Positions 4,254 through 61,740 of a stretch of 64,000 nt of DNA are shown one piece after another; position 1 is the stretch's first letter, and each line of letters begins with the position of its first letter. The stretch is from positions 1,940,001-2,004,000 of the forward strand of contig NZ_CP011270.1 in NCBI RefSeq assembly GCF_001610835.1, read 5' to 3'. Below the pieces are notes generated by a model. The model did not search any database, was not told where the DNA came from, and was given only the letters and a program-made list of their open reading frames with translations. A program made the position numbers and the translations under genes. The stretch comes from Planctomyces sp. SH-PL14. Lineage in GTDB: Bacteria; Planctomycetota; Planctomycetia; Planctomycetales; Planctomycetaceae.

Positions 4254-7187
4254 ATGTCGGTCGGCTCTCCTCCCATTCCTTCGCTCCTGACTCATCCCAC
4301 GGGCGAGATGCGGGAACGGATTCGAGGCATGGACTGGTCGCGCACCGCGCTCGGTCCGCGCGAGTCCTGGCCGGCGCCCCTGCGGATGGCGGTCGACCTG
4401 ATCCTCGACATGCCCGTCCCCGCGGCGGTGCTGTGGGGGCCGGACCTGATCCAGATCTACAACGACGGCTACGCGGTCATCGCCGGCGGAAAGCACCCGG
4501 GAGCGCTCGGACTCCTGAACGCCGCCTGCTGGCCGGAAGTGCAGGAGGTCGTCCGGCCGCTCTATGAGCGAGTTCTGAAGGGGGAGCCGATCTTCGTCGC
4601 GGACCTGCCGCTGACGCTGGCCCGGAAAGCGGTCCCCGAACAGGTCCACCTCTCGGTCGCGTACACTCCTTTGCGGCAGGAAAGCGGAGAGGTCTGCGGA
4701 ATCCTGGCGGTCCTCTCCGAAACAACCGAACTGGTCCGGACGGAACAGCGTCGACAGCAGGCGGAGCGGGAGCGGCTCCGACTGGCGGAACAGCAGCGGC
4801 TGGCGCTGGAGGCGGCCCAGATGGGCTGGTGGCACTACGACGTCGAGCAGGACTGCGTTCACTGGGACGAGCGGCTGCAGGCGATGTTCGGCATCGAGCG
4901 GGCCGACATGAAGCTCGAAGACGTCCTGGCCTACCTCTCCCCCGACGACGCCGAAAAGGTCGCCGCCGCCCTCCGGACCGCGCTCGATCCCGCCTCGACC
5001 GTGCCGTACCGCGTCGAATATCGCGTCCGCCGCCCCGACGGCACCCGCCGCTGGCTGCAGTCCCGTGGTCAGGCGCTGAAGGTGGGCGAAGGGGCGGAGC
5101 AGCGCGTGGTCGGGATCTATGGAACCGCCCTCGATATCACCGAGACCAAGGAGTCGGACACGGCGCTCCGCACCGCCGCGGCCCGGCTGAACCTGGCGCT
5201 CGAGGCGGGGCATCTCGGAACGTGGGAGTGGGACGCCCGGAGCGACGCGATGACGCTCTCTCCGCGAGCCCGGCGGCTCTACGGCGTGGCGGACGGGGTC
5301 TCGACGACACGCGCCGAAGTCCGGCAGCTGCTCCAGCCCGAGCATCGCGAGCTGGCCCGCCAGAAGCTGGAGGAGATCGTCCGGACGAAGGGGGAATACG
5401 AGATCGAGTATGCGCTGGCGGCCCCCCGGAGCGACTCGGCCGCCTCCCCGACGTGGCTCGCCGCGCGGGGCCGGTGCATCTTCAACTCCGCCGGCGACGT
5501 CGTCGGCATGATCGGGGTGGTGCAGGACATCACGCCGCAGAAGCAGTATGAAGACAGCCAGGCGCGGCGGATCGAGGAGATCGATTCCGAGCGGGCCCGC
5601 CTGAGCGCGGCCTTCCAGAAATCCCCGGCGTTCATGTGCGTCCTGCGGGGGCCGGAGCACGTCTTCGAGTTCGTGAACGACCAGTATTCGCAGCTCGTCG
5701 GAGAGCGGGATCTGATCGGATTGCCGGTCCTCAAGGCGCTCCCCGAGATCGAGGGGCAGGGCTACCTCGAGCTGCTCGACCGGGTCCTGGCGAGCGGCCA
5801 GCGGTACGTCGGGCGGGACATGTCGGTTTCGATCCAGCGGAAGCCCGGCGAGCCGCTGGAGGAGCGGTTCATCGACTTCGTCTACCAGCCTCTCACGGCG
5901 GCGGACGGCCAGGCGACCGGCATCTTCGTCCACGGGGTCGACAGCACCGAGATGAAGCAGGGGCTCCAAGAGCGGGAGCGGCTGCTCGACCGGGAACGCA
6001 CCGCTCGGGCCGACGCCGAGCGAGCCAACAAGATGAAGGACGAGTTCCTGTCGACCCTCAGCCACGAGTTGCGGACGCCGCTCAATGCGATCCTCGGCTG
6101 GGCGCAGGTCCTGCGGGCGAACACGAAGGACCCGGCGGCCCTCGCCGAGGGACTGGAGACGATCGAGCGGAACGCCCTCTCGCAGACGAAGATCATCGAG
6201 GACCTCCTCGACATGAGCCGGATCATCTCCGGAAAGGTCCGTCTCGACGTCCAGCGCGTCGATCTGGCAGAGGTCATCCGGACCGGCGTCGAAACCGTCC
6301 GCCCCGCGGCCGAAGGAAAAGGGGTCCGGATCACGACGGTCCTCGATCCGCTCGCCGGCCCGGTCGTCGGCGACCCCGACCGGCTGCAGCAGGTCGTCTG
6401 GAACCTCCTCAACAACGCGGTCAAGTTCACCCCCCGCGACGGGCGGGTCCAGGTCGCCCTGGAGCGGGTCAACTCGCACATCGAAATGAGCGTCATGGAC
6501 ACCGGGATCGGGATCGCGCCCGAGTTCCTCCCGCACGTCTTCGACCGCTTCCGGCAGGCGGACTCCTCCACGACGCGGCGGCACAGCGGCCTGGGCCTGG
6601 GGCTGGCCATCGTCCGGCAGCTCGTCGAGCTCCACGGCGGGAGCGTCCGGGTGAAGAGTCCCGGCATCGACCAGGGGTCGACCTTCACGGTGGCGCTCCC
6701 GATGTCGGCGGTCCATCCGGATCCGGCTCCCGAGCGGGAGCGGTTCCATCCGCGGTCGCAGAAGATCTCCGATCCGGAACAGGACGCGCTCGTCTTCCTG
6801 CCGGGGGTCCGGGTCCTGGTCGTCGACGACGAGCCGGACGCGCGGACGCTGATCCGGAAGATCCTGGAAGACTGCGATGCCCGGGTCACCACGGCAGGAT
6901 CGGCAGTCGAGGCGATGGAGCTGATCTTCAAGGAGCAGTTCGACGTCCTGGTCAGCGACATCGGGATGCCGGACGTCGACGGCTATCGGCTGATCCGCCG
7001 GATCCGGAAGCTCACTCCCGAGCAGGGAGGGACGATTCCGGCCCTGGCGCTGACCGCGTTTGCCCGTTCCGAGGACCGGATGCGGGCCATCCGCTGCGGC
7101 TTCAACATGCACATCTCGAAGCCGGTCGAACGGGCCGAACTGGTGACGATGGTGGCCAGCCTGAGCGGCGCTTCCGGGACGCCTTAG
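4254..7187 (+). CDS. Multi-PAS hybrid histidine kinase with receiver domain
   Basis: A 977-residue soluble sensor with no signal peptide or TM segment. Visible order: an N-terminal PAS/GAF-like sensor (about 35-160), PAS domains near 180-300, 310-430 and 450-570, a short coiled coil (about 570-597), HisKA with the H-box LSTLSHELRTPLNAI (His 604), a HATPase domain with N, G1 and G2 boxes (WNLLNNAVKF, DTGIGI, GLGLGLAI; about 705-816), and a C-terminal receiver (about 852-970; acidic pocket DDE, phosphoacceptor Asp 902 in VSDIGMPD, Lys 956). Signals are therefore cytoplasmic or diffusible. The downstream HTH-receiver gene could be a partner, but it has its own promoter. Confidence 0.93.
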   Translation: MSVGSPPIPSLLTHPTGEMRERIRGMDWSRTALGPRESWPAPLRMAVDLILDMPVPAAVLWGPDLIQIYNDGYAVIAGGKHPGALGLLNAACWPEVQEVVRPLYERVLKGEPIFVADLPLTLARKAVPEQVHLSVAYTPLRQESGEVCGILAVLSETTELVRTEQRRQQAERERLRLAEQQRLALEAAQMGWWHYDVEQDCVHWDERLQAMFGIERADMKLEDVLAYLSPDDAEKVAAALRTALDPASTVPYRVEYRVRRPDGTRRWLQSRGQALKVGEGAEQRVVGIYGTALDITETKESDTALRTAAARLNLALEAGHLGTWEWDARSDAMTLSPRARRLYGVADGVSTTRAEVRQLLQPEHRELARQKLEEIVRTKGEYEIEYALAAPRSDSAASPTWLAARGRCIFNSAGDVVGMIGVVQDITPQKQYEDSQARRIEEIDSERARLSAAFQKSPAFMCVLRGPEHVFEFVNDQYSQLVGERDLIGLPVLKALPEIEGQGYLELLDRVLASGQRYVGRDMSVSIQRKPGEPLEERFIDFVYQPLTAADGQATGIFVHGVDSTEMKQGLQERERLLDRERTARADAERANKMKDEFLSTLSHELRTPLNAILGWAQVLRANTKDPAALAEGLETIERNALSQTKIIEDLLDMSRIISGKVRLDVQRVDLAEVIRTGVETVRPAAEGKGVRITTVLDPLAGPVVGDPDRLQQVVWNLLNNAVKFTPRDGRVQVALERVNSHIEMSVMDTGIGIAPEFLPHVFDRFRQADSSTTRRHSGLGLGLAIVRQLVELHGGSVRVKSPGIDQGSTFTVALPMSAVHPDPAPERERFHPRSQKISDPEQDALVFLPGVRVLVVDDEPDARTLIRKILEDCDARVTTAGSAVEAMELIFKEQFDVLVSDIGMPDVDGYRLIRRIRKLTPEQGGTIPALALTAFARSEDRMRAIRCGFNMHISKPVERAELVTMVASLSGASGTP

Positions 7188-7464: not shown

Positions 7465-8049
7465 ATGAAGACCGTCTTTACCACGGGTGAAGCTGCCAAG
7501 ATCTGCAAGGTCAGCCAGCAAACCATCATCCGTTGCTTTGACTCCGGCCAGCTCAAGGGATTCCGCGTCCCCGGCTCGCGCTTCCGCCGGATTCCCCGTG
7601 ACGTCCTCTACAAGTTCATGAAGGACAACGGGATCCCGACCGACGCCCTCGAAAGCGGCAAGCGCAAAGCCCTTGTCGTCGACGACGATCCGGATCTGGT
7701 CGAACTGATCAAGGACGCCCTGGAAGGGGATGGCCGGTTCGAAGTCCGCGTGGCGAACAACGGTTTCGACGCCGGGATGATGGTCCGGGAATACCGTCCG
7801 GACGTGATCGTCCTCGACGTGATGCTGCCGGACATCAACGGCAAGGAAGTCTGCCAGCGGGTCCGGAGCGATTCGTCCCTCGACGACGTCAAGATCCTGT
7901 GCATCAGCGGGATGGTGGAAGCGAGCAAGATCGAAGAGCTCAAGGCGGCGGGCGCCAACGACTTCCTCCAGAAGCCGTTCGAAGTCGACAAGCTCATCGA
8001 GCGTCTCTGCCAGCATCTCGACATGGACATGCCGGTCGCTTCGCGCTAG
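7465..8049 (+). CDS. Response regulator with N-terminal excisionase/MerR-type HTH
   Basis: A 194-residue fusion. Residues 1-52 are a winged helix-turn-helix of the excisionase/MerR-like type (FTTGEAAKICKVSQQTIIRCFDSG followed by the wing VPGSRFRRIPRD). Residues about 67-188 are a receiver domain with the acidic pair DDD (about 73-75), phosphoacceptor Asp 118 in VLDVMLPD, and conserved Lys 170 in QKPFEVD. The order is the reverse of ordinary response regulators, where the receiver comes first. It is likely to bind DNA under phosphorylation control; the partner kinase may be one of its two neighbours (inference). The ATG is chosen because the HTH starts directly after it; an upstream in-frame extension of 30 codons has no domain content. 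Confidence 0.88.
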   Translation: MKTVFTTGEAAKICKVSQQTIIRCFDSGQLKGFRVPGSRFRRIPRDVLYKFMKDNGIPTDALESGKRKALVVDDDPDLVELIKDALEGDGRFEVRVANNGFDAGMMVREYRPDVIVLDVMLPDINGKEVCQRVRSDSSLDDVKILCISGMVEASKIEELKAAGANDFLQKPFEVDKLIERLCQHLDMDMPVASR

Positions 8050-9376: not shown

Positions 9377-9479
9377 CAGGGGACGTGGACCTTGCCGCCG
9401 CCGTCGGTTCAAACTCGGATTCGTAATTCTTGACGCACGGGTGTGTTTTGCGCGGGAGGGGCGGATAGGTTCGCACCGC

Positions 9480-9810
9480 GTCCTTGCCGGCACGACTTGA
9501 TAGCTCAAACCCAACGTGCCACGGCAGCCGGGGTCAAGGGGACAACCCCTTGCCGCCGGAGGCACTCCTGTGAGGCCCCGCGGTACACGACGGGCGTCCG
9601 CTTTGTGGTACCAGCGTTGAGGACTCCCTCCAAATACACGGCTCGCTTTGCAATCCCTGCGGGTTGGTGAGGGGGCATACGGCACCGTGTCCGCGTTTAG
9701 ACACGCGCTCCTTCAGACATCTCTCGACGGCCAGGCCTCCGGCGGGCAAAGGGCCCAAAGAACAACACAGGCCCCTCTGCACTCCCCACCAGGGTGCCCC
9801 TGGACCCGGT
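9480..9810 (-). repeat. Intergenic structured element, copy 1
   Basis: A full copy read on the minus strand, filling most of the gap between two convergent genes. Subfamily A (leading CCGGGTCC and a 6-bp first hairpin CCAGGG/CCCTGG). The left-arm hairpin H2 carries the long TGTGTTGTT-containing loop; the right-arm hairpin H3 has the short loop TTGT. The central hairpin pairs TGTCT with GGACA, keeping one pair as G-U. Confidence 0.92.
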
Positions 9811-11810: not shown

Positions 11811-12153
11811 ACCGGGTCCAGGGGCACCCTGGTGGGGAGTGCAGAGGGGCCTGTGTTGTTCTTTGGGCCCTTTGCCCGCCGGAGGCCTGGCCGTCGAGAG
11901 ATGTCTGAAGGAGATCGTGTCCAAACGCGGACACCGTGTCGGATGCCCCCTCACCAACCCGCGGGGATTCCAGGGCGAGCGGTGAGTTCTCAACGCCGGT
12001 TCCACAAAGGGGACGTCCGTTGTGTCCCACGGTTCCGCGACGAATATGCCTCCGGCGGCAAGGGGGCCAAAAAAACAACACAGGCCCCCTTGACCCCAGG
12101 CTGCCGTGGCACGTTGGGTTTGAGCAAACAGAGCTGCGCCGGCCAGAACGTGG
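11811..12153 (+). repeat. Intergenic structured element, copy 2
   Basis: A full copy between two divergent genes, subfamily A. It is the longest copy because both arm hairpins (H2 and H3) carry the long loop cassette: TGTGTTGTTCTTT in H2 and its near reverse complement in H3, where the stem reaches 10 bp. The right end is the most diverged of the set (CCAGAACGTGG instead of AAGGACGCGG). Confidence 0.92.
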
Positions 12154-22237: not shown

Positions 22238-22555
22238 ACCGGGGTCCAGGGGGAACCCCTGGTGGGGAGTGCAGAGGGGCAACGCCCCTTTGCCCGCCGG
22301 AGGCCTGGCTGTCGAAAGATGCTTGAAGGAACACGTGTCCAAGCGCGGACAACGTGCCGGATGCACCTTCACCAACCCGCAGGGAGTCCAGAGCGAGCGG
22401 GGAGTCCTCAACGCCGGTACCACAAAGCAGACGCCCGTTGTGTACCACGGTTCCTCATGGAAGCGCCTCCGGCAGCAAGGGGGCGAGACCCCCTTGACCC
22501 CAGCGGCCGTGGCACAATGGGTTTGAGCAAGCACAGCCGTGCCGGCAAGGACACG
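22238..22555 (+). repeat. Intergenic structured element, copy 3
   Basis: A full copy between the start of the DUF11-type gene and the end of the tRNA gene. Subfamily B (leading CCGGGGTCC; first hairpin 7 bp, CCAGGGG/CCCCTGG with loop GAA). Both arm hairpins have short loops; H3 is an 8-bp stem with loop CGAGA. The right strand of the H3 base has CAGC instead of CGGC. Confidence 0.92.
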
Positions 22556-22576
22556 ACTCCAGACTCCAGAAACGAC

Positions 22577-33861: not shown

Positions 33862-34187
33862 GTCCTTGCCGGCACGGTGCTGCTCGCTCAAACCCAATGT
33901 GCCACGGCAGCCTGGGGTCAAGGGGGCCTGTGTTGTTTTCTTGGCCCCCTTGCCGCCGGAGGCACTCCTGTGATTAACCGTGGGATACAACGGACGTCCC
34001 CTTTGTGGGACCGGCGTTGAAGACTCACCACTCGCTGTGGAATTCCCGCGGATTGGTGAGGGGGCATCTGGCACGGTGTCCGCGTTTGGACACGCACTTC
34101 TTCAGACACCTCTCGACGAGAGGGCCTCCGGCGGGCAAGAGGGCGTTGCCCCCTTGCATCCCCCACCAGGGTGCCCCTGGACCCGGT
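33862..34187 (-). repeat. Intergenic structured element, copy 4
   Basis: A full copy read on the minus strand between two co-oriented plus-strand genes; its right end lies 13 bp after the esterase stop. Subfamily A. H2 has the short loop but a rearranged stem (AAGGGGGC/GCCCTCTT in place of GAGGGGC/GCCCCTTT), where three adjacent pairs changed and all remained paired. H3 has the long loop. Confidence 0.92.
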
Positions 34188-35540: not shown

Positions 35541-35867
35541 CCGGGTCCAGGGGCACCCTGGTGGGGAGTGCAGAGGGGCAACGCCCCTTTGCCCGCCGGA
35601 GGCCGTCTCGTCGAGAGATCTCTGAAGGAGAGAGTGTTCAAGCGCGGACAACGTGCCGTATGCCCGCTCACCAACCCGCCCAGATTCCAGGGCGAGCGGT
35701 GAGTTCTCGACGCCGGTTCCACAAAGGGGACATCCGTCGTTTACCACGGTTCCTCATGGAAGTGCCTCCGGCGGCAAGGGGCCAGAAAACAACACAGGCC
35801 CCCTTGCCCCCAGGCTGCCGTGGCACATTGGGTTTGAGCGAGCAGCACCGTGCCGGCGAGGATGCGG
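35541..35867 (+). repeat. Intergenic structured element, copy 5
   Basis: A full copy between two co-oriented plus-strand genes, read in the same direction as both. Subfamily A. H2 has the short loop and H3 the long one. The central hairpin pairs TGTTC with GGACA, keeping one pair as U-G. Confidence 0.92.
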
Positions 35868-42766: not shown

Positions 42767-43081
42767 ACCGGGTCCAGGGGCACCCTGGTGGGGAGTGCAG
42801 AGGGGCAACGCCCCTTTGCCCGCCGGAGGCCCGTCTCGCAGGGGTCTTTCTGAAGGAGCACCTGTCCAAGCGCGGACACCGTGTCGGATGCCCCCTCACC
42901 AACCCGCGGGGATTCCCGGGCGAGCGGGGAGTCCTCGACGCTGGTTCCACAAAAGGGACGCCCGTTGCTTACAACGGTTCCTCACAGGAGTGCCTCCGGC
43001 GGCAAGGGGTGACCCCCTTGACCCCGGCTGCCGTGGCACGTTGGGTTTGAGCCAGGGGAGCCGTGCCGGCAAGGACGCGGT
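42767..43081 (+). repeat. Intergenic structured element, copy 6
   Basis: The shortest full copy. It fills the gap between convergent panC and corA, 10 bp from one stop and 11 bp from the other. Subfamily A with short loops in both arms. Its flanks extend the element's ends as an inverted repeat, CTTGAACCG at the left and CGGTTCAAG at the right. Confidence 0.92.
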
Positions 43082-45978: not shown

Positions 45979-46314
45979 CGGGGTCCAGGGGGGCACCCCT
46001 GGTAGGGAGTGCAGAGGGGCCTGTGTGTTTTATTGGCCCTTTGCCCGCCGGAGGCCTGGCCGTCGAGAGATGTCTGAAGGAGCACATGTCCAAGCGCGGA
46101 CAACGTGTCGTCTGCCCCTCATCTAACCCGCGGGGATTGCATCACAAGCGGTGTACTTTGAGGGAGTCCTCAACGCTTGTCTCACAAAGGGGACGCCCGT
46201 TGTGTCCCACGGCTCCTCATAGAAGCGCCTCCGGCGGCAAGGGGTGACCCCCTTGACCCCGGCTGCCGTGGCACGTTGGGTTTGAGCTATCAGAGTCGTG
46301 CCGGCAAGGACACG
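45979..46314 (+). repeat. Intergenic structured element, copy 7
   Basis: A full copy between two minus-strand genes, in the opposite direction to them. Subfamily B (7-bp first hairpin with loop GGCA). H2 carries a variant of the long loop, one base shorter overall than in copies 1 and 2; H3 has a short loop. Confidence 0.92.
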
Positions 46315-46445
46315 CCTTGGACAGTGGAATCAGACCGACCACCGGTCGGCGAATCCCCCCGGGGCCTGTGGGAGCCCCCAAAAACGAAACGCGGCTCCGG
46401 ATCACTCGATCCGGAGCCGCTGGAAACTCACGATCCACTGGCCAA

Positions 46446-48851
46446 TCAGTTCGGCATCGGCCCGCGGCCCCGACGGCCGCTCCCACTCCCGCTTCCGCCG
46501 CCAGGATAACCGCCGGGATATCCCCCGCCCGGGTAGCCGCCATAGCCGCTGCTGCTGCCGCCGCCGCCTCCCTTACGCATGACGCTCTTCTGGCGGGGAC
46601 CGTACATATCGCCGTAGCCGCCCGCCATTTCCGGCGAGACACCACCCAGGGCTCCGAGCCCGCTGGCATCGACCACCGCCATCGCCATGTCCTTGATCGG
46701 CTTGAAGTACTCGGCCTGATCCTTCATGTAGTCGCGAGCGGTCTTCTCCTCGCCTGCAGCCCGGACCGCGTCAATCAGCCGCAACCGGCCATCCCCTTCC
46801 GCCACCAGCGCCTGACTCGGAAGTCCCAGGTCGCCGCTCGACGTCGTGAACTTCAGGTCGCTGTGGTACTTGGTGTCGAGCTTCGTGTCTCCCGCCGCAT
46901 CGACGAGGAAGTCCCGCGAGGCGAAGGTGTATTCTTCCGTGTCGAACGTGCTCTTGGCCGGGTTGATGACTTCCGTCTTCTGCTTGCCGCCGATCGTCTG
47001 GCCGACGTAGGCATCGACCGCCCCCTGGATGACCGTCCCGATCTTGGAGTCCCACTGGAAGACGTTCATGCGGGCCTGCGGCATGAGCTTCTTGCTGTCG
47101 ACCGCGGAGACGAAGTAATCGACGTCCGGCTTGACGTACGCCGGCGGCGTGATTTCGCTCCACTTGCTCTCGCGGGTCTCTCCCTGCACCACCGTGGCGT
47201 CGCCGTTCGCTTCCGAGGCCTGGCGGCCGAAGTTCGGGTTGATGAGCTCGATCTTGGCCCGATACCGGTAGGTCTTCCCCGGCTCGACGGCAAAGTCGAC
47301 GTAGCGGAACAGGAGCAGTTCGCCGTCCACGGTCGCCCGCGTCCGGATCCACTCGGTGATCGTCTTGTCCTGATCCTTCTGATCCTTGCCCTGGAGCTTC
47401 TTCATCATCTCCTCGGGGGTAACCGGCCCGCCGCGGCCCGCCATACCCGGCCGCTGAGCATTCGTCACCATCAGGCCCGAGCCACCACCCATCTGTCCGC
47501 CATATCCCGGAGGAGCGTAGCCGCCGGAACCGCCGTAGCCCCCCGCCATCTCGGGCGCGACGCCGCCGTATCCGCCACCTCCATATCCGCCGCCCCCGTA
47601 GCCGCCGCCACCCCCGCCGGGGTAACCGCCCATGTACGACGAATCGAAAGCGGAGCCTCCGCCAAAGACTGCAGCCTGAACCTCACGGTTGTCGAACTGC
47701 ATCCCCGAGAAGCCTTTCCGCTCGATCTTCGGCTGTGTGGCGGCCTGCTGATTCTCGAGGTACTTCTCCAGGAGCTTGCGGTTGTACTCAAGCTGTTCGG
47801 CCACTTCCTTGGTCGACAGCTCGAACTTCTCGAGCGACGGATGCGTGACATCCTTGAACCACTGGCCGAAGACCCGCCGCGGCAGGGGCATCGTCATGAC
47901 GCCGTTCGTCACGGTCCCGGCGATGATCTCGGGGTCGAATCCATCGGACTTGCCCAGGACCTCTTCGGCGGAGGCCCGGTCAACAGGAGCCCAGTCGGTC
48001 CACTTGTCCTCGGCGGCGGAGACCAGCTCCTGCCGCTCCAGCGAGAAATCGATGATGTCGAAGGCCCGGGCCGCGTCGGTGAACGGACGCTGGATCGCTT
48101 CCGCAAACCGCCGGATCTGGTCCTTGACCGGGAACACCGCCCGGACGGCGACGTAGTGATAGCCCTCGGCTTCGACGGCCGGCCGGGCCGCGGCGGCCCC
48201 CATCTCTCCGGGAGCGCCCATGGCCGGCGGGGAGTAAAGATCGGGAGCGGTGTAGTTCGACAGTGCCCCGGCCATTTCCGGGGAGACCCCTCCGGCCGCG
48301 CCGAACTCGCCTCCCATCGGCCGCCGGCGGAACTCGTCGCGGATGTTGTCTTCAGGCTTCTTTTCTTCGGGCTTCTTTTCCGTCGTTTCGGTCGTCTGCT
48401 GAGCGGCGGCCAGCAGGGCGGCGGGAATCTTCTGGATCAGCACGCGGCCAGAGGTCGCGAGCGGCTTTTCCAGCCGGGCCAGGACCGGCTCCTTGAGCGG
48501 TTCCTTCCGCTGATAGAGCGGATGAGTGAACTTGGTCGACATCTCCATGTAAAACGGATACCCGTCCGTCCGGAACTCCCGGCGGAGATTGTCGTAGACG
48601 ATCTGCGCGGGGACCTGCTGGGCGGTGAGCTTGAACTTCTCCTGCTCCTCCACCGGCCACGTCCGGGCCTCGAGCTCGTTCTTGTTCTGCTTGACCTTGT
48701 TGGTGATCCGGTCCGGGGTCCCCTCAAAGTGCGACCACCGGGTCATTCCCAGCGTGGCGAGGCCGAGAAGAGCCGCCAGGCCAAACACGCCCTTTTCGGC
48801 ATGGTTGACCACGAGGGCCTTGATTCCCTTGTTGGATTTCTTGCCAGCCAT
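46446..48851 (-). CDS. Gly/Tyr-rich membrane protein of the PilM-operon, unknown function
   Basis: 801 residues. A basic N-terminus and a TM helix (about 20-37; KGVFGLAALLGLATLG) are followed by extracytoplasmic segments. Glycine-rich, low-complexity linkers (about 405-460, and the last 50 residues, made of GGY/PGG units) divide two more ordered parts (about 225-370 and 490-690). The nonapeptide GGV(S/A)PEMAG occurs three times, near residues 187, 429 and 736. AAGGTG lies 5 bases before the ATG. Third gene of a co-directional run headed by the PilM-PilN fusion, so it may belong to a pilus-like or envelope-spanning complex (inference). Confidence 0.75.
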   Translation of the reverse strand: MAGKKSNKGIKALVVNHAEKGVFGLAALLGLATLGMTRWSHFEGTPDRITNKVKQNKNELEARTWPVEEQEKFKLTAQQVPAQIVYDNLRREFRTDGYPFYMEMSTKFTHPLYQRKEPLKEPVLARLEKPLATSGRVLIQKIPAALLAAAQQTTETTEKKPEEKKPEDNIRDEFRRRPMGGEFGAAGGVSPEMAGALSNYTAPDLYSPPAMGAPGEMGAAAARPAVEAEGYHYVAVRAVFPVKDQIRRFAEAIQRPFTDAARAFDIIDFSLERQELVSAAEDKWTDWAPVDRASAEEVLGKSDGFDPEIIAGTVTNGVMTMPLPRRVFGQWFKDVTHPSLEKFELSTKEVAEQLEYNRKLLEKYLENQQAATQPKIERKGFSGMQFDNREVQAAVFGGGSAFDSSYMGGYPGGGGGGYGGGGYGGGGYGGVAPEMAGGYGGSGGYAPPGYGGQMGGGSGLMVTNAQRPGMAGRGGPVTPEEMMKKLQGKDQKDQDKTITEWIRTRATVDGELLLFRYVDFAVEPGKTYRYRAKIELINPNFGRQASEANGDATVVQGETRESKWSEITPPAYVKPDVDYFVSAVDSKKLMPQARMNVFQWDSKIGTVIQGAVDAYVGQTIGGKQKTEVINPAKSTFDTEEYTFASRDFLVDAAGDTKLDTKYHSDLKFTTSSGDLGLPSQALVAEGDGRLRLIDAVRAAGEEKTARDYMKDQAEYFKPIKDMAMAVVDASGLGALGGVSPEMAGGYGDMYGPRQKSVMRKGGGGGSSSGYGGYPGGGYPGGYPGGGSGSGSGRRGRGPMPN

Positions 48852-48940
48852 GGTTCACCTTCGTCGGAAATCCGCTGCGAGGTTCGTTCGCGAGCGGGGG
48901 AGTCGGACAAGAATCAGCGGAAGGAAGGAAACGTCGTCCG

Positions 48941-50725
48941 CTACTGGGGATTGGACGGCGGAGCCGCCGGCGGAGTTCCCGGATTCGCCGGAGCAGCGGG
49001 CGGTGCGGCCGCATCCGCCGCCGGAGCGGCAGGGGGAGTCGCCGCCGGGGGAGCCGCCGGTTCCCCAGCCGGCGGAGCGGCGGGGGCGGGCGGAGTCGCC
49101 GGGGCGGGTGTTGCCGGCGCGGGGGCCGGTGTCGCCGCGGGAGCCGCTGCTGCAGCCGCGGGATCGGTGGCCGGGGCGGCGGCTGGGCTGGCCGCAGGAG
49201 TCGCGGCCGGCATCGGAGCGGCCGGGTCGGTGGCCGCAGGCATCGGGGTCTCGGCCGGCGCGGCCCCTTCGGGGGCTGCCGCGACGTCGCCCATCGGGGT
49301 CGACTCCGGCGCGGCTCCCTCGGCCGGAGCCGCTCCTTCCTTCGGCGGGTTGTAGATCGTGATCGCCCCCAGCACATCGAGCTGGATCAGGTCCGGATTC
49401 TGGAGGGCTCCGTAGCGGTCCTCGACCTTCGGATAGTTCGGCAGGATCGCCGCCGCTCCCGCTTCCGGGGTCATGAGGCTGTTTCCACCGAAGCCACCCA
49501 TTCCTCCCATGCCGCCTCCGAACGAGGACGACTCTCCACCGGGCATCTCCATCCCGGGGCCGTACGCCCCGCCGAACGGCGAGCCGCTGTAGGCCGCGCT
49601 CCCCTCGGGGTTGACTCCCATCGGGTAGGAGTCCGGCCCCATCGGCATGCCGGGGGTGAACGCCTTTTCATGGGGATTGGGAGACATGTTGAACCGGACG
49701 ATCCGGACCGGCCAGGGGCGGTTCGCCAGGAGCGTCAGAAACTCGGGGATCTTCATCTGGCTGATGATGACCCGCATGTAGAAACCGCGTTCCTTGAACT
49801 CCCCTTCGGCGTTGCCGATGTAGCGGATCTTCTTGACCGCCGTGGCACCACCGCCGTAGGCCGCCCCGTCAGCGGGCATCGACATGCCGTCGGGCGATCC
49901 TGCCATCGCTCCATCGCTTTCCGGACCAAACTCTTCGGCCGGATTGACCATCGCTCCGCCGGCCTTCGGGCCGGCGGCAGCTCCACCACCACTCATCATC
50001 ATCATCGAGGGATCAGCGTAACCTCCCCCGTCGGCTCCGCCCGAGCCGGGCATCCCTGCGGCAGACTTCGGAACGGCGGTCCCCGTCCCGCCGAGGAGGC
50101 GGAAGAGCTCGATCGCCCGGACGGTCGCGTTGGCAGGACCGTCGGCATACTTGTTGGCGTCGCGCACAGCGCCCGCCAGCATCTGCATGAGCCACAGGTC
50201 TTCCTGCGCGTCCCACACCTCTTCGTTGCTGGTGGGACGGGTCGGGTGGAACACGGCGACCGTGAGGGCCTTCGGCTCGACGAACACCTTCGGCGTCCAG
50301 GAGATCCCTTTCATCGTCTCCGGAACCATCGGCTCCAGGGACTCGAAGAGCTTCTGGAACTGATTCGGATACTCCCGCTTGTAGGCGAACTTCGCCTGCA
50401 GGTTGAATTCACCGCGATAAGTCTTGGGGGCATCGCGGGAGACGATCGCCGGCCAGGTCATGAGCTTGGCCTGCTCGCCCCAGAGGCCTCCGACGGCCGA
50501 GTCGACGAGCTTCTTGTGCTTCTCGTTGACCGCCTTCAGCCCTTCGGCGAACCGCGTATTCGGATTGCTGGCCGTCGGGATGGCGCCCTCCGAGGCCTTG
50601 ATCTGATCTTCGCGGGCCTTGGTCGCGGCGCTCAGCGAGGAGTTCGCCGAGAAGTAGCCGTACAGGATCATCGGCAGGGCGAGGCCCAGCAGAATCCAGA
50701 AGCGGTGTTTCTTGATGGCGTCCAT
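48941..50725 (-). CDS. PilO-like membrane protein with long Pro/Ala tail
   Basis: 594 residues. One N-terminal TM helix (about 7-28; RFWILLGLALPMILYGYFS) and a helical segment lead into an extracytoplasmic region. Residues about 300-360 (KKIRYIGNAEGEFKERGFYMRV.. split; ISQMKIPEFLTLLANRPWPVRIVRF) resemble the ferredoxin-like domain of PilO/GspM proteins. The C-terminal 100 residues are almost entirely Pro/Ala/Thr, as in a wall-spanning stalk. Position, 84 bp after the PilM-PilN fusion, fits a PilO role, but the resemblance is weak and by eye. Confidence 0.65.
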   Translation of the reverse strand: MDAIKKHRFWILLGLALPMILYGYFSANSSLSAATKAREDQIKASEGAIPTASNPNTRFAEGLKAVNEKHKKLVDSAVGGLWGEQAKLMTWPAIVSRDAPKTYRGEFNLQAKFAYKREYPNQFQKLFESLEPMVPETMKGISWTPKVFVEPKALTVAVFHPTRPTSNEEVWDAQEDLWLMQMLAGAVRDANKYADGPANATVRAIELFRLLGGTGTAVPKSAAGMPGSGGADGGGYADPSMMMMSGGGAAAGPKAGGAMVNPAEEFGPESDGAMAGSPDGMSMPADGAAYGGGATAVKKIRYIGNAEGEFKERGFYMRVIISQMKIPEFLTLLANRPWPVRIVRFNMSPNPHEKAFTPGMPMGPDSYPMGVNPEGSAAYSGSPFGGAYGPGMEMPGGESSSFGGGMGGMGGFGGNSLMTPEAGAAAILPNYPKVEDRYGALQNPDLIQLDVLGAITIYNPPKEGAAPAEGAAPESTPMGDVAAAPEGAAPAETPMPAATDPAAPMPAATPAASPAAAPATDPAAAAAAPAATPAPAPATPAPATPPAPAAPPAGEPAAPPAATPPAAPAADAAAPPAAPANPGTPPAAPPSNPQ

Positions 50726-50808
50726 GGAAAAACTCGCGAGACGAGTGGTGTTCGAATTGATCGGTTCAAAACCCCGGTCACCCGGGTCGACGGACTACTG
50801 CGAGCGGA

Positions 50809-52992
50809 CTACTGAGGAGCGGCCGGGGCCATGGGGGCCGCTTCCGGCATCGGCGCGGCTCCGTCCATCGGGGCAGCACCTTCTCCATTCGCCGCGGCGG
50901 CAGCGGCAGCCGCCTTGGCGGCAGCAGCCTCCATCATCTTCGCCGCCTCTTCCGGATGGATCAGCTTGAAGTCCTCCGGAATCACGTCCGGCGAGACTCC
51001 CTCGGGAGCTTCCTTGCGCTCCTCCGGCTTGACCGGTTTGTAGACGAACTGGACCAGGAAGGTCGTCTGCTTGAGCCGCCGCGCCCCTTCGGGAAGCGGG
51101 ACGTTTCCGCCCGGCAGCGGAGTCACGGCCATCGGCATCGGGAAGTTCGCGTTCGGGATGACCGCCTTGTTCGGTTTCGTGTCGATCTGTCCCGCCGGCG
51201 TGTACATGATCGTTTCGGGCCTGTAGTCCATGATCGTGGCGTGGGAGATCCCCATCCGCCCCACGTCCCGGACCGGCCCTTCCCCGCGCTGGATCTGCCA
51301 CTTCTGGAGGTTCTTGACGAAGTAGTTGTGCAGGAAGAGAACTTCCTGCTCCTCCGGCTTGCCATCCGCGTGATGCCAGTGCGTCCCGGAGATCGAGACC
51401 AGGTAGCCTTCGCCTTCCGGTCCCGCTTCCTTCTGCTTCTCCGGCAGGTACTCCTTCTGGTGGGCCAGCGTGCTGAACCAGCCCCCGGCCAGGTCGGCGT
51501 ACTTCTCCGAAGTGAACGCCTTGATCGAGACCTGATACCGCTGCTCGATCGGCTTCTCGGCGGAGTCGACGTCCTCGCGGGGGACGCAGTCGTTGACGGC
51601 GTCGAACAGCTCCATCCAGGAGATGTCGCGGCGGTTCGCCACGGCGTCCGTAACCCGCTTGCGGTCCGCTTCGAACTGGCCCTGCTCCGCCGTGTAGGCC
51701 GAGTTGTATCCGCCGACCTGATCGACGAACCCCTTGGCCGTTTTCTCGGCCTCGACGAAGTCCGGATTGTCGACGTATGAGAAGGCCATCCCGTTGCCGA
51801 TCGTCGCTCCGGCGAAGCCGAGCATGAGTGCCGCGGCGGTCGCGACCGCCCAGGGCTTCTTGCTGCGGATGAGCCGCTCGCGGGAGATCTCCGGCGGGAG
51901 GAGCGTGGTCTGGATCGCCGTCTGCCCGAGCTGCTGGAGGGCGACGCCGTAGGGGACGGTGAAGCTCAGGACGTTGTCCGCGAAGAGCGGCGAGTTGATG
52001 ACCGAGTCGCCGGCGAGGGCCTTGAACGCCTCAGGACGCTCGACGTCGTACTGGAGGTTCTGCTGCAGGAACTTCTGGAGCCCCGCCAGCTTGAAGCCGT
52101 TGCCGACACCGATGACCTTGGTGATCTTGGCGGAGCGGTTCACGCTCGAGAAGAACCCGATCGACCGCTGGATTTCCGAGACGAAGTCGTTGAACACCGG
52201 CCGCAGGGCCTGGAAGACCGCTCGCGGATCCGGAGACTTCGTGGCGTTGCACTTGAGGTGCTCGGCCTTGGCGAAGCTGAGCTTCATCTCCTTGGTCAGG
52301 GCCCGCGTGAAGTGGTTGCCCCCGATCGGGATGTTGCGGACCCAGATCTTCTTGCCGTTCGAGACCATGAGGGTGGTGTTGTCGCACCCCATGTCGAGAA
52401 CGATGACGTGGTCGGCGTCCTCCGACGGCGTGCCGGGGCGCATCCCGAGCTCGTCGTAGGAGAGGACGTTGAAGAGCCCCAGCGGCGCGATCTGGATGAG
52501 TTCGACTTCCAGCTTGGCGCGCGTGAAGGGGCGGAGCTGGTTCATGACCTGATCGCGCTTCATGGCGAACAGGCCGACTTCCGCTTCGAGGAGGTAGCCG
52601 CTCTCTTCGATTCCCGAGCCGAGAGGCTGGTAGTCCCAGATCACTTCTTCGAGCGGGAAGGGGATCTGCTGGCGGGCTTCGTACTTGACGATTTCGCCGA
52701 GCTTGCTGACTTCAACGGGGGGGAGCTGGATGAAGCGGACCAGCGAGGAGTGGCCAGGGACCGAGAAGCCGATCATGTCCCCCTGCAGGTTGTTCCGGGA
52801 GAGGAACGTCTGCATGGCGTCGCGGATGATCTCTTCCGGAACGGCGTCCGGCTGGGAGAGGATCTTGGGGTACTGGACGTAGTCGAAGGCGGCGGCCACG
52901 ACCTGGCCGGTGCTCTCCGCGTAACGCAGCTTGATCGCCTTGAGGGCCGATTGCCCGATATCGATACCCCACGCGGCACGGCTGGGAGCCAT
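50809..52992 (-). CDS. PilM-PilN fusion protein of a type IV pilus-like system
   Basis: 727 residues. The first 360 are an actin-like PilM/SHS2 ATPase domain (WGIDIGQSALKAIKLR, VKYEARQQIPFPLEEVIWDYQ, VIVLDMGCDNTTLMV, VIGVGNGFKLAGLQKFL). QTTLLPPEISRERLIRSKKP then resembles the N-terminal lipid-facing motif of PilN and leads to one TM helix (about 380-402). Beyond it is a large extracytoplasmic part with a coiled coil and a C-terminal Ala/Met/Pro-rich tail. PilM and PilN are normally separate. AGGA sits 9 bases before the ATG. First gene of the run. Confidence 0.85.
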   Translation of the reverse strand: MAPSRAAWGIDIGQSALKAIKLRYAESTGQVVAAAFDYVQYPKILSQPDAVPEEIIRDAMQTFLSRNNLQGDMIGFSVPGHSSLVRFIQLPPVEVSKLGEIVKYEARQQIPFPLEEVIWDYQPLGSGIEESGYLLEAEVGLFAMKRDQVMNQLRPFTRAKLEVELIQIAPLGLFNVLSYDELGMRPGTPSEDADHVIVLDMGCDNTTLMVSNGKKIWVRNIPIGGNHFTRALTKEMKLSFAKAEHLKCNATKSPDPRAVFQALRPVFNDFVSEIQRSIGFFSSVNRSAKITKVIGVGNGFKLAGLQKFLQQNLQYDVERPEAFKALAGDSVINSPLFADNVLSFTVPYGVALQQLGQTAIQTTLLPPEISRERLIRSKKPWAVATAAALMLGFAGATIGNGMAFSYVDNPDFVEAEKTAKGFVDQVGGYNSAYTAEQGQFEADRKRVTDAVANRRDISWMELFDAVNDCVPREDVDSAEKPIEQRYQVSIKAFTSEKYADLAGGWFSTLAHQKEYLPEKQKEAGPEGEGYLVSISGTHWHHADGKPEEQEVLFLHNYFVKNLQKWQIQRGEGPVRDVGRMGISHATIMDYRPETIMYTPAGQIDTKPNKAVIPNANFPMPMAVTPLPGGNVPLPEGARRLKQTTFLVQFVYKPVKPEERKEAPEGVSPDVIPEDFKLIHPEEAAKMMEAAAAKAAAAAAAANGEGAAPMDGAAPMPEAAPMAPAAPQ

Positions 52993-56790: not shown

Positions 56791-57111
56791 CCGGGGTCCA
56801 GGGGGGCACCCCTGGTGGGGAGTGCAGAGGGGCAACGCCCCTTTGCCCGCCGGAGGCCCGTCTCGTAGGGGACAGTCTGAAGGAGCACCGGTCCAAACGC
56901 GGACAACGTGCCGGATGCCCCCTCACCAACCCGCGGGGATCCGAGGCGAGCGAGGAGTTCCCAACGCCGCTCTCACAAAGCGGACATCCGTTGCTTACCA
57001 AGGTTCCGCTACGAAAGTGCCTCCGGCGGCAAGGGGGCGAGGCCCCCTTGACCCCAGTAGCCGTCGCACATTGGGTTGGAGCGAGCAGAGTCTTGCCGGC
57101 AAGGACGCGGT
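56791..57111 (+). repeat. Intergenic structured element, copy 8
   Basis: A full copy between divergent genes. Subfamily B (7-bp first hairpin, loop GGCA). Short loops in both arms; H3 has its longest short-loop stem (9 bp, CAAGGGGGC/GCCCCCTTG, loop GAG). The central hairpin keeps only 4 bp. Confidence 0.92.
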
Positions 57112-61415: not shown

Positions 61416-61740
61416 ACCGGGGTCCAGGGGGTAACCCCTGGTGGGGAGTGCAGAGGGGCAACGCCCCTTTGCCCGCCGGAGGCCTGGCCGTCGAGAGATG
61501 TCTGAAGGAGTGAGTGTCCAAACGCGGACACCGTGTCGTATGCCCCCCTCACCAACCCGCGGGGATTGCAATGCGAGCGGTGTTGTGTGAGGGAGTCCCC
61601 GACGCCGGTCCCACAAAGCGGACGCCCGTCGCTTACCACGGTTCCTCACCGAAGCGCCTCCGGCGGCAAGGGGTTGCCCCCTTGACCCCGGCTGCCGTCG
61701 CACAATGGTTTGAGCTATGGGCGTCGTGCCGGCGAGGACG
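61416..61740 (+). repeat. Intergenic structured element, copy 9
   Basis: A full copy whose right end (GGACG) touches the stop codon of the sulfite reductase gene, with no base between. Subfamily B (7-bp first hairpin, loop GTAA). Short loops in both arms. Confidence 0.92.

Follow-up and report, generated by a model that had tools for sequence, protein, structure and literature searches.

In classical type IV pilus (T4P) systems, an LLP peptide at the N terminus of PilN binds PilM. PilP is described as binding both PilQ and PilMNO, thereby linking the cytoplasmic-membrane complex to the secretin, and PulL as a fusion of PilM with PilN (PMC10191384). A PilM-PilN fusion is also reported in most T4P clusters of Campylobacterota (PMC11870540). 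The Amuc_1098-1102 cluster of Akkermansia muciniphila (MUL2) has been published (PMC5332112, PMC13174399), with PilQ/Amuc_1098 given as 907 aa (PMC4960237), and the locus has been proposed as a glycan-attachment pilus in Akkermansia and aquatic Verrucomicrobiota (PMC13174399). Neither the joining of PilM to PilN nor the Akkermansia locus is new; our literature search, which partly covered titles and listings, found no publication linking the planctomycete operon described here, Amuc_1100, and a giant secretin. In Planctopirus limnophila and Gemmata, crateriform structures (pits) have been described as press-stud-like contacts of the inner and outer membranes that bear 12-nm pili-like, dextran-binding fibers, and planctomycetes are reported to take up large molecules; that account assigns no machine to the pits, the fibers, or the uptake (PMC5394234).

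The ORF1-3 locus and its products

The window, which is the whole 64-kb stretch of DNA analyzed (C1:1940001-2004000), belongs to a planctomycete genome of 8.44 Mb in one contig. Three minus-strand ORFs lie in a row at positions 52992-46446, with intergenic gaps of ~85-90 bases (Table 1), and inspection of the neighboring genes listed in the window indicated no relation to them. No secretin, ATPase, or platform gene was found in the window, since none of the 9 secretin, 18 T2SSE, and 21 T2SSF matches of the genome fell within it, in agreement with the first-pass annotation, which had noted that genes for pilins, secretins, and ATPases were missing next to ORF1-3. Promoter and terminator scans gave one convincing site, the hairpin after ORF3, which was the strongest of seven terminator-like sites in the region, a total not above that of shuffles (4.9 ± 2.9 expected). 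Because the position of this hairpin directly after ORF3 fits, the operon probably ends there; ORF1-3 would be co-transcribed. An intergenic dispersed repeat of ~325 bp, with copies 74-87% alike, occurs nine times in the window and was also present in 11/12 other stretches of the same genome; it probably has many hundreds of genomic copies, and open frames inside the repeat yield false ORFs.

Table 1. Positions of ORF1-3, their parts, and further features (numbering of the window, or of contig C1 where so prefixed)
Feature	Position	Strand	Basis or remark
ORF1, PilM-PilN-type fusion, 727 aa	ATG 52992 to stop 50809	-	PilM_2, TIGR01175 pilM, and Amuc_1101_fam matches
PilM (actin-like) domain, ORF1 residues 9-354	51931..52968	-	Pfam PilM_2; PDB profiles of PilM 3jc8, 2ych, 5eou, 5eox
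PilN-type N-terminal peptide TTLLPPE, ORF1 residues 362-368	51889..51909	-	motif and alignment to the 5eou PilN peptide
Predicted TM helix of the PilN part, ORF1 residues 381-399	51796..51852	-	hydropathy maximum; KKPW and hydrophobic run conserved
ORF2, PilO/Amuc_1100-like, 594 aa	ATG 50725 to stop 48941	-	AF2 model, Foldseek, VIA, Amuc_1100_fam
Predicted split ferredoxin-like domain, ORF2 residues 202-458, broken by disordered Gly/Met-rich loops	49352..50122	-	DSSP and pLDDT of the model
Pro/Ala-rich low-confidence C-terminal tail, ORF2 residues ~478-594	48944..49294	-	model and sequence
ORF3, membrane protein, 801 aa	ATG 48851 to stop 46446	-	AF2 model and conserved position after ORF2
Gly/Tyr/Ala-rich disordered linker, ORF3 residues 398-475	47427..47660	-	pLDDT <50 over nearly the whole span
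Predicted C-terminal beta domain, ORF3 residues 512-694	46770..47318	-	model; invariant R516, D519, Y528, N540, G617, G688
Intrinsic-terminator-like hairpin 3' of ORF3, 13 pairs then GTTTCGTTTT (T-rich)	46391..46420	-	terminator scan
Copies of the intergenic repeat	45990-46340, ~9477-9800, 11821-12149, 22250-22558, 33862-34144, 35550-35862, 42777-43079, 56803-57109, 61434-61739		
Giant secretin orthologue in the window's genome, 1,475 aa	C1:4775610-4780034		~2.8 Mb from ORF1-3

Residues 9-354 of ORF1 matched Pfam PilM_2 (PF11104, E 1.3e-32), and ORF1 also matched NCBIfam TIGR01175 pilM (E 5.9e-48), both over the cut-off. Its best NCBIfam E-value was obtained with Amuc_1101_fam (2.6e-58, residues 1-477), yet the score was 198 bits against a curated equivalog cut-off of 650, which was reached by 0/199 genomes. 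Because the score lies below this cut-off, we call ORF1 an Amuc_1101 homologue and not a member of the family. The PilM domain is followed by IQTTLLPPEISRERLIRSKKPW and then by the hydrophobic segment 381-399. An [S/T/N]LLP motif was present in 73 of the 77 relatives of sufficient length, and L, L, P, E, R, and KKP were invariant in this stretch in 41 aligned relatives. Furthermore, 5eou, a crystallized PilM-PilN peptide construct, aligned to the ORF1 family profile through its own INLLP, suggesting that the contact known between PilM and PilN is made in cis within this natural fusion. In the second half of ORF1, HMMs recognized no PilN (Pfam searches of 41 members gave none), the PDB profile search returned only tubulin-tail chance matches, and comparing its profile with those of ORF2 and ORF3 gave weak matches or none. 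The PilN label for this half rests on the motif, the predicted membrane helix, and the position, and its periplasmic part would be expected to have a PilN fold.

The AlphaFold2 (AF2) model of ORF2, built from 47 sequences (pLDDT 70, pTM 0.61), showed a long N-terminal membrane helix, coiled-coil helices, ferredoxin-like strands with one helix, and a disordered Pro/Ala tail; two disordered loops are predicted to interrupt the ferredoxin-like part. The top 11 rows of a Foldseek search with this model were all Amuc_1100 or PilO, with weak E-values of 0.59 and above. VIA-align gave the following values for Amuc_1100: Z 11.8 (6lad, 183 residues, rmsd 6.3), Z 11.0 (6laf, 160 residues, rmsd 3.4), and Z 10.8 (6kny, 167 residues, rmsd 3.5). 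PilO reached Z 7.3 (2rjz, 92 residues, rmsd 2.5) and Z 6.2 (5uvr), and the GspL periplasmic domain 5hl8 reached Z 5.7, with the next unrelated chain at Z 5.4. Independently of the fold search, the NCBIfam model matched by most ORF2 members was Amuc_1100_fam (3/47, best E 0.0016). The ORF2 of the window had no PilO match in Pfam, and the PDB profile search with the ORF2 alignment gave no usable match; the NCBIfam match of one ORF2 member was discarded as a low-complexity chance match. Judged by its predicted structure, ORF2 is PilO-like.

The model of ORF3, from 44 sequences (pLDDT 72, pTM 0.66), consists in order of an N-terminal TM helix, an alpha/beta domain (residues 128-276, with a disordered loop), a helix, a Gly-rich linker, a beta domain, and a Gly-rich tail. 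Pfam and NCBIfam searches with ORF3, and NCBIfam searches with its relatives, gave no recognized family; no PilP family was among the hits of ORF3 itself, no Amuc_1099 model was among the NCBIfam matches listed for the relatives, and the PDB profile search with the ORF3 alignment gave no usable match. NCBIfam matches of many ORF3 members were low-complexity chance matches and were discarded. Foldseek returned nothing at E ≤ 0.001, the best rows being antibodies and fibronectin-like domains; VIA gave Z 6.6 at best, a level that the tool itself calls common, and no PilN, PilO, or PilP chain was among the fold matches listed. These fold matches are middling, and an Fn3 fold is not claimed for ORF3. 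Two relatives carry further matches. The protein at the ORF3 position of a deep-branch relative (L163:4472-6508, minus strand) matched EF-hand-type models (XopAW-type 3.4e-7, lanmodulin 1e-5), which hints at calcium or metal binding, and a single member of the 44-sequence ORF3 set, possibly the L077 protein of 980 aa, matched GldK/PvdO/EgtB-type models (up to 5e-26), a sequence match that suggests an extra fused formylglycine-generating-enzyme-like domain.

The first-pass annotation had taken the first protein for a PilM-PilN fusion, which is supported by the PilM_2 match, the LLP motif, and the TM helix, with the PilN half giving no HMM match; it had also taken the second for a PilO-like protein with a long Pro/Ala tail, in line with the fold matches and the tail at ~478-594. 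The third protein had been described as having no recognized relative: it indeed matched no recognized family, but its place in the gene order is conserved within the phylum, so that it is not an orphan. The low-complexity parts of the two partners are predicted to be disordered loops and tails. "Giant" was an overstatement for proteins of 594 and 801 aa, which owe their length to disordered inserts.

Conserved gene order and the giant secretin

PilM relatives were sought in 84,980 species genomes, and the best 80 loci were kept. Synteny was scored with ORF2, ORF3, and secretin profiles, with room defined as at least 2 kb, at least 4.5 kb, and at least 8 kb downstream, respectively. Among the best 80 loci, ORF2 followed PilM in 58/58 loci with room and ORF3 followed ORF2 in 48/48, a regularity that puts the ORF1-3 gene set far beyond chance. 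Many of these loci fed the ORF2 and ORF3 profiles, and a fairer test was provided by 20 genomes kept apart from profile building: ORF2 was detected in 17/20 (absent in L059, L066, and L067) and ORF3 in 19/20 (absent in L067), always in order, with the profile and test sets not fully independent given the identical ORF lengths and scores of L051 and L072. In L059, L066, and L067, the ORFs after PilM nonetheless have the expected size. Phylum-wide, the ORF3 profile matched 18/59 genomes at E ≤ 0.001; judged by eye, 16 of these matches were downstream of the PilM match listed for the genome, at most 3.5 kb away, whereas two (G055, G037) were on other contigs. Since 41/59 genomes had no match, ORF3 is either too diverged or absent outside Planctomycetia.

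The low-complexity segments fall in the loops, linker, and tails of the ORF2 and ORF3 models. ORF2 measured 535-640 aa with 7-15% Gly in 11 family- and class-level loci (L048-L058), and 365-517 aa with 4-7% Gly in nine phylum-level loci (L059-L067). These segments look like spacers added in Planctomycetia.

A giant secretin was the next gene in 14 of the 43 loci with at least 8 kb downstream among the best 80. The open frames of these secretins span ~1,150-1,530 codons, and the loci are labelled Pirellulales, Singulisphaera, Planctomycetales, and others. An operon that always ends in a secretin is ruled out, as none followed in the other 29/43. The best NCBIfam match of the orthologue in the window's genome was PilQ (TIGR02515, 1.3e-33), and the secretin profile matched 13/59 genomes at E ≤ 1e-40. 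The family-level relatives bearing PilM belong to the same family as the window's genome; within it, the secretin of G024 is encoded on the opposite strand, ~11 kb away from PilM, and that of G048 is distant. In deep branches, L163 contains PilM, a 343-aa ORF (PilO-like size), a 680-aa ORF (ORF3-like size), and a secretin of ~907-908 aa, and L161 and L162 contain PilM, a 377- or 318-aa ORF (PilO-like size), and a secretin of ~900 aa, with ORF3 missing between. The secretins of L163, L161, and L162 matched Amuc_1098_fam at 2.1e-35, 4.9e-33, and 3.4e-33, as first or second best model. This gene order and these Amuc_1098_fam matches suggest that the ancestral cluster was likely PilMN - PilO-like - (ORF3) - secretin. 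The secretin likely grew in Planctomycetia and became unlinked in the window's family.

Further secretin-related proteins were seen in the window's genome. A second, partial relative of the middle region of the giant secretin (4.1e-50) lies ~16 kb from a PilB-like and a PilT-like ATPase gene, the sites being C1:458245-459342 and C1:475239-478393, possibly a further pilus-type cluster. The protein at L157:4551-6656 (C1 ~7002.5-7004.7 kb) combines a BlaR1/M56-type N-terminal half with a secretin-like C-terminal half and is possibly a regulator with a borrowed secretin domain or a chance weak match.

Other machine genes and the proposed role of ORF1-3

PilB, PilQ, and pilin genes, proposed as a check on the initial reading, were found elsewhere and distant: besides the 1,475-aa secretin, an operon at C1:4608-4624 kb (L149) encodes PilB, PilT, PilB, and PilC with five N_methyl-matching ORFs (four over the cut-off), and it lacks PilMNOP. 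In the whole genome there was one PilM_2 match, no Pfam PF05137 match for a separate PilN, and no Pfam T2SSL (PF05134) match for GspL at E ≤ 0.001; the full set of separate PilM, PilN, and PilO genes that the first-pass annotation had named as evidence against its own reading did not appear. A transposon study of Planctopirus limnophila describes a locus, Plim_0410-0401, in which four genes of type II secretion stand with six unknowns restricted to Planctomycetes (PMC10632474), and from this description it may be the counterpart of the L149 operon. Tad-like sets, each with one ATPase and two short T2SSF proteins, occur near C1:3362-3366, 5033-5036, 7729-7732, and 8108-8111 kb, suggesting that the genome has many pilus-type systems.

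We propose, with a probability of roughly three in four, that ORF1-3 encode an inner-membrane alignment subcomplex of PilMNO type, part of a type IV pilus-like machine with its remaining genes scattered over the chromosome. The observations behind this proposal are the PilM domain, the LLP motif, the gene order, the ORF2 fold match, and the presence of motor and secretin genes in the genome. Against it count the negative PilN searches, the weak Foldseek E-values of ORF2, the middling fold matches of ORF3, the lack of ORF3 in L161 and L162, and the 29/43 loci in which no secretin follows. The cytoplasmic actin-like PilM domain of ORF1 would hold the LLP peptide of its own PilN half in cis, and the PilN half would cross the membrane at residues 381-399 and pair periplasmically with the PilO/Amuc_1100-like ORF2. 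ORF3, with its membrane anchor, flexible Gly-rich linker, and distal beta domain, would reach toward the N-terminal part of the giant secretin and do the job of PilP (or GspC) in classical systems. This PilP/GspC-type link is a conjecture; the membrane anchor, the constant position as next gene in Planctomycetia, and the distal folded domain borne by a flexible linker make ORF3 the best candidate. ORF1-3 would form a complex that connects the outer-membrane secretin with the PilB/PilT/PilC motor, and copy number suggests that the L149 motor may be the one that uses it. The disordered inserts may serve as flexible spacers, given the wide periplasm of planctomycetes.

A different assignment, that ORF1-3 supply the GspL/GspM-like platform that the type II secretion system (T2SS) of this genome lacks, or serve both that system and the pilus, finds support in the PulL fusion (PMC10191384). 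A GspE/GspF/GspG-like cluster that includes a GspD-like secretin (L151) is present in the genome, yet there is no T2SSL match, and T2SSL was weakly matched by 6/19 ORF1 relatives (best 7.2e-4). However, the best-scoring type for the linked secretin family is PilQ, or Amuc_1098/MshL in distant members, and the best fold matches of ORF2 are Amuc_1100 and PilO, with GspL lower; we regard the T2SS assignment as unlikely.

PilMNO-like proteins could also have been repurposed as a non-pilus envelope scaffold, as described for FcpMNO in the flagellar motor cage of Campylobacterota (PMC11870540), and the operon here is indeed unlinked to pilin and ATPase genes; this reading is close to that of the first-pass annotation. 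The reported independence of FcpMNO from T4P genes contrasts with the coexistence here of ORF1-3 and a PilB/PilT/PilC/prepilin operon that lacks PilMNOP, and a secretin follows in 14/43 loci and in three deep-branch loci. A scaffold role is very improbable. The envelope-spanning character postulated at the outset is upheld, but the accompanying suggestion that this may not be a normal pilus is not supported in view of the PilB-PilT-PilB-PilC-prepilin operon lacking PilMNOP and the PilQ/GspD-type giant secretin in the same genome, and of the giant secretin orthologues directly after ORF3 in the loci counted above.

As subcomplex components, ORF1-3 may help explain planctomycete surface fibers. 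A tentative extension, which we hold to be possible though doubtful, is that the PilMN - Amuc_1100-like - ORF3 complex and the giant secretin form the crateriform machine emitting dextran-binding fibers, a phylum-wide MUL2 counterpart that would capture glycans, with the inserts bridging an unusually wide periplasm. The related planctomycete module, which has a partner matching Amuc_1100 and, in sister orders, a giant secretin in fourth place, provides named genes for deletion and tagging. Two "hypothetical" planctomycete families (ORF2 and ORF3) become testable pilus parts, and the well-studied Amuc_1100 takes its place among PilO-type machine parts of the wider PVC group.

Comparison with known systems

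Compared with the T2SS, the likeness lies in GspL, described as a PilM-PilN fusion (PMC10191384), and in the presence of 5hl8 among the ORF2 fold matches, whereas the genome has no T2SSL match and the secretin association is another one. With the type IVa pilus PilMNOPQ set, ORF1-3 share the PilM domain, the PilN-type LLP peptide with a TM helix, the PilO-like fold, and a PilQ-type secretin, and the genome has PilB/PilT/PilC and prepilins; the differences are that PilM and PilN are fused, that ORF3 stands in place of a recognized PilP, and that the genes are scattered.

The Akkermansia MUL2 locus (Amuc_1098-1102) differs in several respects: ORF1 is below the curated cut-off of Amuc_1101_fam, the secretin here is unlinked and ~1.6 times longer, and the planctomycete proteins have large disordered inserts with no Amuc_1102-type pilin seen alongside. 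The likenesses are that ORF1 matches the PilM-like Amuc_1101 family over residues 1-477, that the ORF2 fold is closest to Amuc_1100 and its gene adjoins the PilM gene, that the secretin is the fourth gene in relatives, in an order like that of Amuc_1101-1098, and that the deep-branch secretins are of Amuc_1098-like size and family.
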